DNA of 22,110 nucleotides from a virus. The translations under genes and the position numbers were made by a program. Under the pieces are notes generated by a model that did not search any database, was not told the origin of the DNA, and saw nothing but the letters and a program-made list of their open reading frames with translations. The stretch lies in the IMG/VR virus record IMGVR_UViG_3300047557_000090, positions 1 through 22,110 of that record; one strand, 5' to 3'. The first letter of the stretch is position 1. Every line of letters begins with the position of its first letter. Below, piece after piece: positions 4,901 through 12,920 of this stretch.

Positions 4901-4985
4901 GCGGCTGTGGTGGAATCGGTAGACACAGGAGACTTAAAATCTCCCGGCTTACGCTGTGTGGGTTCGAGTCCCGCCAGCCGCACCA
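4901..4985 (+). tRNA. tRNA-Leu (anticodon UAA), encoded CCA
   Basis: A complete class II cloverleaf: acceptor stem GCGGCTG (4901-4907) pairs with CAGCCGC (4975-4981). The anticodon stem GGAGA/TCTCC (4928-4932, 4940-4944) encloses loop CTTAAAA with anticodon TAA at 4935-4937. The long variable arm (4945-4957) has stem CGGC/GCTG, typical of leucine tRNAs. The T arm is GTGGG, TTCGAGT, CCCGC (4958-4974). Discriminator A at 4982 (as in tRNA-Leu) is followed by an encoded CCA. It reads UUA and, by wobble, UUG. It is probably processed from the transcript begun near 4717. Confidence 0.97.
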
Positions 4986-5435: not shown

Positions 5436-6150
5436 TCCTAGTATCGCTCTCGTGGATGCTGATGTGATGGTTTATCGCATCGGCTTCGCGTCAGAGAATG
5501 ACTCCGAGAGCATTGCTAGGGCTAGGCTTGTCGAGTGGTTCACTGACATTGTATACATCGACCTGAAGTGCGAGGATTACAAAGCGTGGATCACCGGCAA
5601 GTCTAACTATAGGTACGACATTGCCAAGACTGTTCCGTACAAGGGCAACCGCAAGGACATGAAGAAGCCCAAGCATTACGAGTATCTTCGTGATGTCTTG
5701 GTCAAGCGTTTGGGTGCAATCGTGACTGATGGCGAGGAGGCTGACGATGCTGTCGGTATCGCATCCACGGAGAACCCAAGTGCTTGGATCGTCCATGTGG
5801 ATAAAGACTTGGATCAACTTCCAGGGCTTCATTACAATCCTGTCAAATGCGAGAAGTACACGGTCACTGAGTTTGAAGGGCTACGGAACTTCTACAAGCA
5901 GATGCTGACAGGAGACAGAACAGACAATATTGAGGGCATTCACGGTATCGGGCCAGTCAAGGCTACCAAGATACTTAGTGAATGTAAAACTGAACAAGAA
6001 CTGTATGAGGCTGTATGGAAGACGTATCAGAAACACGAACTGTCGCTAGAAAGACTGACAGAAAACGGGCAACTGCTGTGGTTGCGAAGGACGCCGGATC
6101 AAATGTGGTTGCCTCCTTCAACCTCGCAGGATGCCAGTGGACAGTCTTAA
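5425..6150 (+). CDS. 5'-3' exonuclease / flap endonuclease (T7 gp6-like)
   Basis: 241 residues. It removes RNA primers and degrades host DNA ends in related phages. Metal-binding acidic residues appear in order: D11/D13 (LVDADVM), E104-E105 and D107-D108 (EEADDA), D126/D128/D130 (VDKDLDQLPG) and D164/D167 (LTGDRTDNI), followed by a helix-three-turn-helix DNA-binding motif (GIHGIGPVKATKIL, 171-184). The C-terminal LLWLRRTPDQMWLPP also occurs in phage homologues as I recall them, so the frame is real to near its end although the next gene overlaps. The ATG lies inside the end of SSB. Confidence 0.93.
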   Translation: MSSNPSIALVDADVMVYRIGFASENDSESIARARLVEWFTDIVYIDLKCEDYKAWITGKSNYRYDIAKTVPYKGNRKDMKKPKHYEYLRDVLVKRLGAIVTDGEEADDAVGIASTENPSAWIVHVDKDLDQLPGLHYNPVKCEKYTVTEFEGLRNFYKQMLTGDRTDNIEGIHGIGPVKATKILSECKTEQELYEAVWKTYQKHELSLERLTENGQLLWLRRTPDQMWLPPSTSQDASGQS

Positions 6151-6371
6151 GCGTAGCGCACATGACTGAGATGGGCCTGTGTGACCCGGAGACGCACACG
6201 ATCAAGATTCGTGCATCGTTGCCGGAGCAGGCTCAGGAGGCTACCTTTTACCATGAACTTGTCCATGCGGTGCTGTTTACAATGGGTAAGACAAACCATG
6301 ATGAGGAGTTTGTTGACACTTTTGGTGGTTTGCTTCATCAGTATTCTAGGACAATGAATGAAACCAAGTAG
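6105..6371 (+). CDS. HExxH metalloprotease-like protein, early region
   Basis: 88 residues from the GTG at 6105. The core is FYHELVHAVLFTMGK (start of the zincin signature HELVH) followed by a DEEFVDTFGGLLHQ helix that could supply a third ligand. Upstream is a short beta region (CQWTVLSV, then ETHTIKIRAS). Small proteins of this layout (WxV, then DxxTxxIxI, then HExxH, then FxxxxxxLLxQ) occur as unknown genes near nucleases in many phages; some resemble the IrrE/SprT-type minimal zincins. The frame is open to an ATG at 6015, but that extension lies over conserved exonuclease sequence. No GTG-proximal ribosome binding site is convincing, so the start is uncertain. Substrate unknown. Confidence 0.75.
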   Translation: MVASFNLAGCQWTVLSVAHMTEMGLCDPETHTIKIRASLPEQAQEATFYHELVHAVLFTMGKTNHDEEFVDTFGGLLHQYSRTMNETK

Positions 6372-11007: not shown

Positions 11008-11177
11008 ACTTCATCCTACAGTTTAGGCTCGGTATCGGCTTCGACATCGAGCACAATGAGATCAATCGGTACTGTATGCTAGACGAGGAAGGCAAAGAAG
11101 AAGTTGTTTGCTTTGTTGGTCTAATCATAAAGATACCGTTCATTGAAATCCTGATCGGAGATTTCTTCACGGAATAA
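11004..11177 (+). CDS. Small hydrophobic phage protein at the end of the early arm
   Basis: 57 residues from a GTG that overlaps the RNR stop in a GTGA junction. The sequence opens MNFILQFRLGIGFDIEHN and ends in a hydrophobic run (EVVCFVGLIIKIPFIEILIG), which reads as beta strands or a weak membrane segment. Short proteins beginning FxFxFRLGxG are common unknowns in podoviruses. The upstream GGAG is about 14 bases from the start, so translation is probably coupled to RNR. It is the last rightward gene, three bases before the terminator hairpin. Function unknown. Confidence 0.7.
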   Translation: MNFILQFRLGIGFDIEHNEINRYCMLDEEGKEEVVCFVGLIIKIPFIEILIGDFFTE

Positions 11178-11223
11178 AAAAAGCCCCTGCAAGGTTCCTA
11201 TAAAGGTTCCTTGACAGGGGCTT
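11176..11223. terminator. Terminator between convergent arms, strongest for leftward transcription
   Basis: The outer stem AAGCCCCTG (11181-11189) pairs with CAGGGGCTT (11215-11223). It continues as CAAGG (11190-11194) with CCTTG (11209-11213), leaving one bulged A at 11214 and a 14-base loop. Seven A at 11176-11182 become a U run after the stem on the leftward transcript. The rightward side has only a mixed AATTATTT, so rightward termination is probably weaker. Position three bases from the endolysin stop and next to the last early gene fits a shared terminator. Confidence 0.9.
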
Positions 11224-11225
11224 AA

Positions 11226-11693
11226 TTATTTCAACAGCAGGCTTTCTGCCTGTCTCCTTCTAGTCAATCCTCTGAGCACTCTACCGGCTGCTTTGTCCCA
11301 CTTAAGGCACTCCAGCGCAGCCTCTTCCCAGTTCTTCTCGTTGATCCTCTTCCTGAAGGTACTGATACGAAGGTTACCCAGTCCACAGTTGTAGGCCCAT
11401 GACAGCACAGCAGCCTGTCGCCTAGGTGGCTCATCCTTCAGACCGGGGCAGAGCTTCATCACACCCACATAGAAGTACTCTAGATGCTCGTCTAAGCCCT
11501 TCTCGCACTGCTCCATAGTCCAGATTGTGTCTGGATTGATGTCAGGGCCAGTAGAGCCATAGCCGATAGTCCATGGGTGTCCACCTGTGCCCGGATCAGG
11601 ATACGCTTTGACCATTCCGTTAGGAAGAACTTTAGCGCATCCTTCAAAGGGCTTGACTAGAACATTCTTACATAGTTCAATTGCGGGGTTCAT
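11226..11693 (-). CDS. Endolysin, GH24 phage lysozyme
   Basis: 155 residues. It cleaves the N-acetylmuramic acid-N-acetylglucosamine bond of peptidoglycan at the end of infection. The catalytic triad of the T4/lambdoid lysozyme fold is visible: E17 (KPFEGC), D33 (YPDPGTGG) and T42 (PWTIGYGSTG). The later SWAYNCGLGNLRISTFRKRIN and GLTRRRQAE motifs are typical of the C-terminal lobe. The spacing between E17 and D33 is longer than in T4 lysozyme. There is no signal peptide or SAR segment, so export should need a holin. The start overlaps the upstream stop (ATGA). It is the last gene of the late arm. Confidence 0.94.
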   Translation of the reverse strand: MNPAIELCKNVLVKPFEGCAKVLPNGMVKAYPDPGTGGHPWTIGYGSTGPDINPDTIWTMEQCEKGLDEHLEYFYVGVMKLCPGLKDEPPRRQAAVLSWAYNCGLGNLRISTFRKRINEKNWEEAALECLKWDKAAGRVLRGLTRRRQAESLLLK

Positions 11694-12421
11694 TTAAGTC
11701 CGGGCTTAAACGGGTCTTCAAAAACATCTACAAATTTGTCTTCTTTATATGGAGTATTTTTTCTTTCGTTCTCTACAGATTTCTTAGAACGAGAAGAAAT
11801 ATCTTCTTTCAATTGACTTGGAAGCCCTTTGAACTGCTCCATTAAAATAGAAAACTCAGTAGCAAAAGAAGGGTCTAGGTGAACATTTTGAGGTACTTTG
11901 CTCATCCAGATACGCTGTTGCGGATCGCTTACTGATGCCCTTCCTAGTCCATGTGCTTGCAGTTCTCTAGGGGTTGTCCTATAAAAATAGAAATCATCTT
12001 TCTTTGTTTCAGGATATAGCCTAGCAAGAGTGCCTTCTAATGTCTGCTTTCCGGCCTCTACTGCTTGCTTCTGCTGTCTAAGCGATCCAACAGGGCCAAA
12101 GTTACTAGCAAATGTTTTATTTGCTGTGTCTAAGAACTGTCGTTCTTCTTTAGTAACTTTCTCTCCGTCCATAATCTTCTTAGCTATTTCTGATGCAGCA
12201 TTGAAGAAAAGACGATACTGAACAGCGTGCGACATCTCATGGGCAAGCGTTGCAGCCTTTTGCTTATTTTCCTTTGACGGAGTAGGAGCAATTATCGTAT
12301 TTTCTACAGTATCATATTCCCCACGTGCGCCTGAATACGGGCTTCTTTGAATCCATCTAGGAAGAAGTCCTTGTTCAGCTAAGAGATTGTATACTTCGCT
12401 GGGATTGAATAAGTTAGCCAT
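11690..12421 (-). CDS. HExxH metallopeptidase-like protein in the virion/lysis region
   Basis: 243 residues. ATLAHEMSHAVQY (58-70) carries the zincin motif H61-E62-M63-S64-H65. A possible third ligand lies further on, for example E152 or H156 in TPRELQAHGLG, but this is not certain. The C-terminal 50 residues are highly charged and Lys-rich (SSRSKKSVENERKNTPYKED) and probably flexible. No signal peptide. It stands between a holin-like gene and the endolysin and is downstream of the internal virion proteins, so it could act in lysis, in virion maturation or on injection. The gene looks more A+T-rich than the endolysin gene beside it. Substrate unknown. Confidence 0.75.
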   Translation of the reverse strand: MANLFNPSEVYNLLAEQGLLPRWIQRSPYSGARGEYDTVENTIIAPTPSKENKQKAATLAHEMSHAVQYRLFFNAASEIAKKIMDGEKVTKEERQFLDTANKTFASNFGPVGSLRQQKQAVEAGKQTLEGTLARLYPETKKDDFYFYRTTPRELQAHGLGRASVSDPQQRIWMSKVPQNVHLDPSFATEFSILMEQFKGLPSQLKEDISSRSKKSVENERKNTPYKEDKFVDVFEDPFKPGLK

Positions 12422-12431
12422 ATTTACTCAC

Positions 12432-12920
12432 TTAGTTCTTAGGTTCACGTTTCTCAATGCTCCGACCAAGGAACCAGAACGTCAGAATCATCATCAGCAT
12501 ACTGAAGTCATCAGCAGTCCAGATTTCTTGCATGACCTGGATAGCGGGTAAACCACTATTGACAGCATACATGATGGTAACGATCTTGACAGCCGTATAC
12601 AGACCGAAGAGCAACCAAGTGATACCGGGACGAACCAGAGCAGAGATAGAAGCAACCCACTTGTAAGCCTTCTTATCGGCTTCGGCTTGCTGCTTGAATG
12701 CTTCTCCGATAGCGTCTACATTGGCCTTGCTGAAGTCAATATACTTCTCTTCCATGCGGTACTCACCCCGCATCTTCTCTAGGTCAGTCTGAAGAGAGAA
12801 CATCTTCAGTTCGTGGCTTCGTTCATCTTTACGGTCAAGCCACTTCAGTACCTCCGGGGCCAGCCGGAACAGGCCACCGAAGATACTACCTAGAAGACCG
12901 CCTCCTAGCATTTCAAACAT
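12432..12920 (-). CDS. Probable holin (three-helix membrane protein)
   Basis: 162 residues. The N-terminus MFEMLGGGLLGSIFGGLFRL is hydrophobic and glycine-rich; a long charged helix follows (about 28-84). Then come two adjacent membrane segments with an arginine between (KWVASISALVRPGITWLLFG, 87-106, on through VKIVTIMYAV, 111-120) and a last segment (FSMLMMILTFWFLG, 139-152) before a charged tail. The layout resembles the three-TM holin family of gene transfer agents and phages (GTA_holin_3TM), where an ARP or VRP motif lies in the first TM. Its location two genes upstream of the endolysin supports a lysis role. The start overlaps the upstream stop (TGATG). Confidence 0.7.
   Translation of the reverse strand: MFEMLGGGLLGSIFGGLFRLAPEVLKWLDRKDERSHELKMFSLQTDLEKMRGEYRMEEKYIDFSKANVDAIGEAFKQQAEADKKAYKWVASISALVRPGITWLLFGLYTAVKIVTIMYAVNSGLPAIQVMQEIWTADDFSMLMMILTFWFLGRSIEKREPKN

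Follow-up and report, generated by a model that had tools for sequence, protein, structure and literature searches.

The DNA analysed here, a stretch of 22,110 nucleotides from a virus (IMG/VR record IMGVR_UViG_3300047557_000090; hereafter the window), carries on its minus strand an open reading frame (11690..12421) that begins with ATG, ends with TGA and encodes a 243-residue protein, P0001, containing the motif HEMSH. The gene is called from this frame and its translation, from dN/dS and from a family alignment. A sequence-only reading, which left the strand unstated, had placed such a protein between a holin and an endolysin, and the frame is where it was said to be. Its 3′ neighbour on the same strand (11226..11693, 155 aa) is firmly identified as the endolysin, a lysozyme, by matches to Phage_lysozyme (7.5e-29) and phrog_7 (7.6e-37), and the TGA of P0001 overlaps the lysozyme ATG in the sequence ATGA. 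The holin assignment is softer. The 5′ neighbour (12432..12920, minus strand, 162 aa) matches phrog_6637 (2.8e-29), a family of unknown function, and reaches a holin PHROG only at 0.098; in phage AcaML1 and record MW202825, genes of this kind adjoin a gene annotated as lysozyme, and we refer to it as holin-like, a putative holin.

A terminator-like hairpin with a T run (11176..11224, minus strand; −27.7 kcal/mol, z −5.69) follows the lysozyme gene. It was found by separate folding and is missed by a simple promoter/terminator scan, whose four hits, one resembling a promoter and three resembling terminators, all lie on the plus strand and do not clearly exceed what shuffled sequences give. Because the metallopeptidase gene shares this one terminator with the lysis genes, P0001 is presumably made late. 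Junction comparison further delimits a cassette (11687..12447, minus strand), net 755 bp between copies of TGAACC at 12442-12447 and 11687-11692, which is absent from relatives where the holin-like gene and the lysozyme overlap.

The gene is more A+T-rich than its two neighbours, as had been noticed from the letters (GC 0.406 and GC3 0.311, against 0.485/0.564 for the holin-like gene and 0.513/0.558 for the lysozyme). As a sign of separate origin, however, this composition is weak, since other late genes of the window come near it in GC3 (gp698, 0.329; tailA, 0.350; gp441, 0.373) and since the one head-position relative measured, L158, is A+T-rich as well (0.378/0.289); the earlier suggestion that the gene is perhaps of separate origin is supported. 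P0001 is a constrained gene. Its dN/dS between the window and L001-L005 is 0.10-0.15, with 5 to 73 synonymous changes; the ratio is 0.03-0.18 in six other lysis-position pairs of the family, 0.16-0.22 in three head-position pairs and 0.03-0.15 in seven close pairs.

Three conserved blocks mark the product. HEMSH (residues 61-65; 12227..12241, minus strand), a motif of the HExxH type whose expectation from P0001’s own composition is 0.006 in 243 residues, is predicted to supply two zinc ligands and the general base. In the second block, Y147-R148-x4-E153 (11963..11983, minus strand), the tyrosine, for which a role can be presumed, and the arginine are invariant, and E153, on a second helix, is the predicted third zinc ligand. 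The third, H181-L-D-P-S-F-A-T-E189 (11855..11881, minus strand), is the hallmark of the family. The C-terminal tail, described earlier as Lys-rich and charged, is charged but only mildly Lys-rich (in residues 198-243, 9 Lys, 11 Lys plus Arg, and 9 Asp plus Glu). No hydrophobic or membrane segment was seen in P0001, the maximal 19-residue mean being 0.37 on a measure of hydropathy, as distinct from a signal-peptide prediction.

Elsewhere in the window, an early protein with the motif HELVH (6015-6371, plus strand) passes the cut-off of the Pfam model DUF6782 (30.7 bits against 27) and matches phrog_1233. P0001 touches the same Pfam model, and the two proteins otherwise show little resemblance, as had been judged by eye: in a single comparison the best match was 15 residues around the motif (E 0.019). 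The phage of the window thus carries two unlike zincin-like proteins. The plus strand also holds a tRNA-Leu (taa; 4901-4985), of which positions 4907-4971 share 86.6% identity with the tRNA-Leu of giant Pseudomonas phages, PA5oct among them, a likeness that could be at most a weak hint of the host.

A first structure prediction, from 12 close sequences (alignment A3), was set aside at a pLDDT of 40.8. That obtained from 22 sequences reached a pLDDT of 66.7 and a pTM of 0.72, its five models spanning 49.9 to 66.7. The model (pLDDT 66.7) has helices at 7-16, 54-84 and 151-162 and strands at 22-24, 35-37 and 42-44, a predicted minimal zincin layout in which HEMSH lies in helix 54-84 and E153 in helix 151-162. 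Residues 106-144 and 175-183 fall below a pLDDT of 50; H181 is therefore not placed. Foldseek against the PDB gave no match at E ≤ 1e-3, the value being 0.2. With VIA-align, rows 1-17 were all lethal-factor zincins (Z 6.0-5.5, 123-132 residues, rmsd 4.1-5.0, 12-16% identity), a Z of 6 being not high and within the range of common arrangements; Pro-Pro endopeptidases, PepO, PprI and ArdC make up lower rows. The earlier description of a zincin-like protein in the late arm agrees with the invariant HExxH and Glu residues and with this predicted layout, and neither outcome that had been named as speaking against it, a predicted structure lacking a metal site or a clear match to a structural protein, was found. 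Judged by its residues, the zincin chemistry of P0001, including the predicted zinc ligands, is well supported and very probably right.

The family was collected with the motif scans HxDPxFATE and YRTxPxE.QA, neither of which includes HExxH, and with alignment-guided scans. HExxH is nevertheless present in all family matches, to which 12 of the 13 HxDPxFATE stretches and 15 of the 24 YRTxPxE.QA stretches belong; left outside were L137 (an HxDPxFATE match), L155 (an HELVH protein lacking the HxDP block) and eight chance matches to YRTxPxE.QA. With the window included, the family comprises 37 phage contigs: six with the gene between the lysis genes (clade A), six with it behind the lysozyme (clade B), 15 with it in head position and ten remote. 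The motif table and the tree use 31 of these, near copies (L004, L027, L166, L192, L193 and L194) being omitted. Identity to P0001 falls to 24% among the 31 rows (L140), and P21, H61, E62, H65, Y147, R148, E153, A156, H181, P184 and L193 are invariant in all of them; the HExxH motif is likewise present in 31 of 31, and D183 and E189 are each kept in 30. In alignment A5, 19 of 20 rows, all except L140, terminate in [DN]PFxxx[ILV]K, a C-terminal motif that is missing in the fused versions and in the remote stand-alone L188 and L190.

Zinc metallopeptidases are already known in phages. No work appearing to describe this zincin family was found in the literature, as judged by titles and the beginnings of abstracts, and the family has no match above a curated cut-off or with a convincing E-value in the libraries searched, Pfam, PHROGs and NCBIfam among them; for P0001, NCBIfam gave only HExxH rows below cut-off. 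By tblastn, no relative of P0001 was found in 50,697 phage records (one search up to E 1, with records very near the window possibly excluded), or in two scans of genome contigs, covering 27 and 74 pattern stretches; sequence searches of the PDB with P0001 and with alignment A2 gave chance-level rows only. The family sits below the cut-offs of the curated libraries used and can be found by the short motif HExxH ... YRx4E ... Hx[DN]P.

How regularly the gene accompanies the lysis genes was read from IMG/VR scans with the holin-like protein (best 80 of 96 relatives) and with the endolysin (70 listed). At least 85 contigs, the window included, carry both genes; these contigs are fragments, some nearly identical, and the counts are of contigs. 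The five contigs of the initial P0001 search all fall within the set of the holin-protein scan, and L006, which is the window itself, was dropped from the counts. Among the matches listed, the two lysis genes are adjacent or overlapping in 62 of the 85 contigs and separated by 474-475 bp in 15, by the metallopeptidase in six and by 1259 bp in two. The metallopeptidase begins 6 nt past the last codon of the endolysin in four of the 85 listed, and does likewise in two further contigs where only the endolysin is visible; in five clade B contigs displayed, a terminator-like sequence stands after the metallopeptidase instead. At neither place was the gene seen in 75 of these 85 listed contigs, the far side of the lysozyme being out of view in nine of the 75. 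When the matches listed are restricted to holin identities of at least 85% (56 contigs), the metallopeptidase lies between the lysis genes in six and after them in four.

Other genes use the same slot. A gene of about 160 aa occupies it in 15 of the 85 listed contigs (L036-L043 and L051-L057), as judged by the 474-475-bp gap; the four that were read are all of one kind, and the two scanned are endonuclease VII-like by PHROGs, one of them also matching HNH at 0.0069, with no Pfam match for the one tried. Such an endonuclease-like gene might keep the slot recombining. Between the holin-like gene and the lysozyme of L125 stands a gene (1749-2981) for a protein of 410 aa in which Pfam recognises a guanylate-cyclase catalytic domain (1.9e-8); L125 is the one read of the two contigs with a 1259-bp gap, that of L126 being equal in size. 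Small HExxH proteins also occur near the endolysin: those of L176 (2860-3234) and L073 (5954-6349), of 124 and 131 aa and 57% identical, each directly follow it, and one of 104 aa in L043 (6625-6939), matching phrog_1233, lies 205 nt behind it. None of the three has a BLAST match to P0001 at E up to 1.

Location in the head module, as would be expected of a prohead protease gene, is seen in 15 relatives and not in the window. In 13 of the 15, the gene is flanked by TerL and the portal gene (L144, L150, L153, L157, L158, L159, L160, L163, L165, L166, L181, L183 and L184), with an extra gene on the TerL side in two, a GNAT gene in L153 and a 105-aa ORF in L184; in the remaining two, one side is out of view (the portal side in L154, the TerL side in L162). 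The terminase and portal names derive from PHROGs matches of L144 and L140 and from BLAST to those. The head-position contigs are kin of the window’s phage: a tail protein in the record of L158 shares 54-55% identity with its counterpart in the window, and G022 combines a helicase 98.5% identical to the window’s with a portal that is 64% identical to L140’s.

More distant relatives remain near the same genes. The order in L190 and its near copies L193 and L194 is TerL, metallopeptidase, P22-type portal (the portal tested on L190); TerL precedes the gene in L188, and a 256-aa gene separates it from the portal in L140. In L189, L191, L192 and L195 a long ORF, of 1484 aa in L191 and L192, carries the domain at its end and is directly followed by a portal or portal-like gene, and L196 has the domain within an ORF of 1310 aa, downstream of TerL, that contains a PcfJ domain as well; the portal call was tested on L191, those of L189, L192, L195 and L196 being judged by resemblance to it. 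The fused proteins of L191 (2014-6468) and L196 (1851-5783) contain repeats such as FAEGGEA and YADGGYV, a loose pattern matching 8 times in the first protein and 4 times in the second; the repeats might serve as linkers and be cut by the metallopeptidase built into the same protein.

Head module and gene can also be found apart. G002, G013 and G022 have the usual head module, with portals 64-66% identical to L140’s, and no copy of the gene was detected in their fetched stretches with a profile of the lysis-position rows and BLAST of the ORFs; translation of the gap between TerL and portal in G002 and G013 shows three tiny ORFs. L177 (4700-5260) and L178 (4360-4930) display such a terminase-portal gap lacking the metallopeptidase, with three tiny ORFs of which two are basic and one is Cys-rich by eye. 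G029 is a clade B contig that carries the gene; its TerL is 29% identical to that of L144, and neither an ORF of at least 60 aa between TerL and the next gene nor a portal of the L140 type was found in it. A stretch of this contig (L197, G029 8000-24724) has replication genes more than 99% identical to the window’s, yet an unlike terminase. From these comparisons, the head module of G029 appears to have been swapped.

A maximum-likelihood tree of the 31 rows orders these positions. The ten lysis-position rows (A and B) form one group (90/95, a value below the tree program’s star), in which clade B is paraphyletic to A (88/92), and this group stands beside 13 head rows (100/99). L153 (split 87/47) and then the remote head-position and fused rows lie outside, and all rows outside the lysis group are in head position or fused. 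The tree is midpoint-rooted and has several long outer branches, which, the program warns, meet. One move from the head to the lysis module is the shortest account, its direction resting on the outer rows all being head-position or fused. Taken by itself, relocation from the head module is well supported by these sequence comparisons, and we consider it probable. Because the family usually adjoins packaging genes, the position between holin-like gene and lysozyme does not alone make P0001 a lysis protein.

We propose that P0001 is related to the metallopeptidase domains found in polyvalent proteins of phages but stands alone, and that it is carried by the virion and acts in the next host cell. 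It would be an active, zinc-binding protease of the gluzincin type (HExxH ... E), whose gene moved as a cassette from the head module into, or just behind, the lysis gene pair, a site that would keep its expression late. The protein would enter or attach to the virion, be injected, and cut proteins of the next host during or just after DNA entry, rather than dissolve the envelope. We infer carriage by the virion and action in the next cell from the family’s place beside the portal, its fusions to long portal-side proteins and packaged polyvalent proteins reported in the portions available of two papers (PMC5512222, PMC8472413). Two observations speak against it. In G029 the gene is found together with a head module of a different kind, which means that any packaging would have to work with more than one type of head; and the apparent lack of a copy in G002, G013 and G022 suggests that the gene can be dispensed with. 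As a complete chain of steps, this tentative account has, in our judgement, slightly less than an even chance of being right. The sequence-only reading had named a virion protease and a host-protein target among its options, and both suit the family context better than its third, a peptidoglycan or envelope protease, which was drawn from position and is weakened by the head-module relatives, by the absent hydrophobic segment and by a best likeness to lethal-factor-type zincins.

The order TerL-gene-portal in 13 of the 15 head-position contigs, those with both sides visible, would also suit a head or virion maturation protease that cuts scaffold, portal or an internal virion protein during assembly. 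Such a protease should not be as dispensable as the gene seems from G002, G013 and G022, whose portals are close to L140’s, nor be retained with a different head, as in G029; moreover, the nine gene-bearing contigs in which the protein encoded just before the holin-like gene was seen divide into four clusters of that protein (50% identity over half of its length), so that it is no fixed substrate, and we regard this role as rather unlikely. Two specific versions were considered. That P0001 processes the large protein encoded upstream of the holin-like gene is unsupported by co-occurrence, each of the four clusters being seen without the gene too, and service to its own portal is weakened by G029. 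The lysis neighbourhood suggests instead an accessory lysis protein, a protease that would pass the holin lesion, cut envelope or cross-bridge peptides and speed lysis. This would fit the two distinct places on the lysis side, both of them upstream of a sequence resembling a terminator, and the way in which the gene in the window runs into the lysozyme start as ATGA. Against it, the gene lies in the head module or close to it, or is part of a fusion there, in the other 25 of the 37 contigs, the lysis group is nested among them in the tree, and in most of the listed contigs that have both lysis genes it is seen at neither position (75 of 85, subject to the nine with no far-side view). P0001 also has no signal or membrane segment by hydropathy, though it may still pass through a holin lesion; on balance we judge a lysis function unlikely.

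Similar caution applies to the idea of a portable virion-cargo protease, whose gene would change between head and lysis modules and whose product could be used with different heads, as in G029, because it brings a loading signal of its own, for which the C-terminal [DN]PFxxx[ILV]K is a candidate. The fused versions would then enter the particle within a larger protein; that the remote stand-alone L188 and L190 also lack the motif slightly lowers our estimate, and we hold this reading, too, to be unlikely. Patchy presence (10 of the 56 listed contigs with holin identity of at least 85%), low GC3 and a slot shared with the endonuclease-like gene of other contigs are what would be expected of an accessory ‘moron’ gene, whose product would be a late host-directed protease staying in the infected cell for host takeover or exclusion of other phages. 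The head-module relatives argue for a link to the particle, which makes this quite improbable. Finally, the block from H181 to E189 is about as conserved as the active site, as might be seen if a catalytically idle zincin fold served as a binding or structural domain; since none of the 31 rows departs from the three ligands and the general base that are predicted, we consider this highly improbable. The case separates the position of a gene from its role: one that lies inside a lysis operon has most of its family in the head module.

Several known proteins invite comparison. The overall arrangement of P0001 residues 5-202 resembles, at a Z of at most 6.0, that of the lethal-factor-type zincin fold in the PDB, and the fold may be the same; this is a likeness of shape only, with no bearing on function, target or toxicity. 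In a viral structure library, the single match at E ≤ 1e-3 was A0A6J5LIM5 (BFVD), an uncharacterised 203-aa protein of an uncultured Caudovirales phage (E 2.7e-5, TM 0.49/0.57), 19% identical to P0001 with an rmsd of 17.6 over the alignment; polyvalent proteins were among the weaker, non-significant matches. The best Pfam match of P0001 is DUF6782 (PF20573, putative metallopeptidase), around HExxH, which is also touched by nine of nine A2 members; for P0001 it covers 54 residues only and, at 24.4 bits, lies below the 27-bit cut-off.

The closest parallel appears to be the polyvalent metallopeptidase (PF18818, MPTase-PolyVal), whose model matches five of the nine A2 members at E up to 1, all below the curated cut-off (best 0.0051) and P0001 not among them. 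As far as the accessible text of the description goes, polyvalent metallopeptidases have the same core, with an N-terminal helix, three strands and two C-terminal helices, and a domain of the N4 virion RNA polymerase, in a region required for encapsidation, gives the same 4dv8 match (Iyer 2017, PMC5512222). Shared with P0001, within that partial view, are HExxH with a Glu on the second helix, the N-terminal helix and three strands, and phages with terminase and portal in which fused relatives stand before the portal. P0001 differs in being single-domain and in its lysis-operon position, multidomain forms being confined to L189, L191, L192, L195 and L196, and its family has features of its own in the H-x-D-P block and the C-terminal [DN]PFxxx[ILV]K. 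For the polyvalent domains, the parts consulted of the same paper leave the role open between self-processing and attack on host proteins (Iyer 2017, PMC5512222). If P0001 is virion-borne, it would provide a small, single-domain model for the metallopeptidase domains of these giant proteins.
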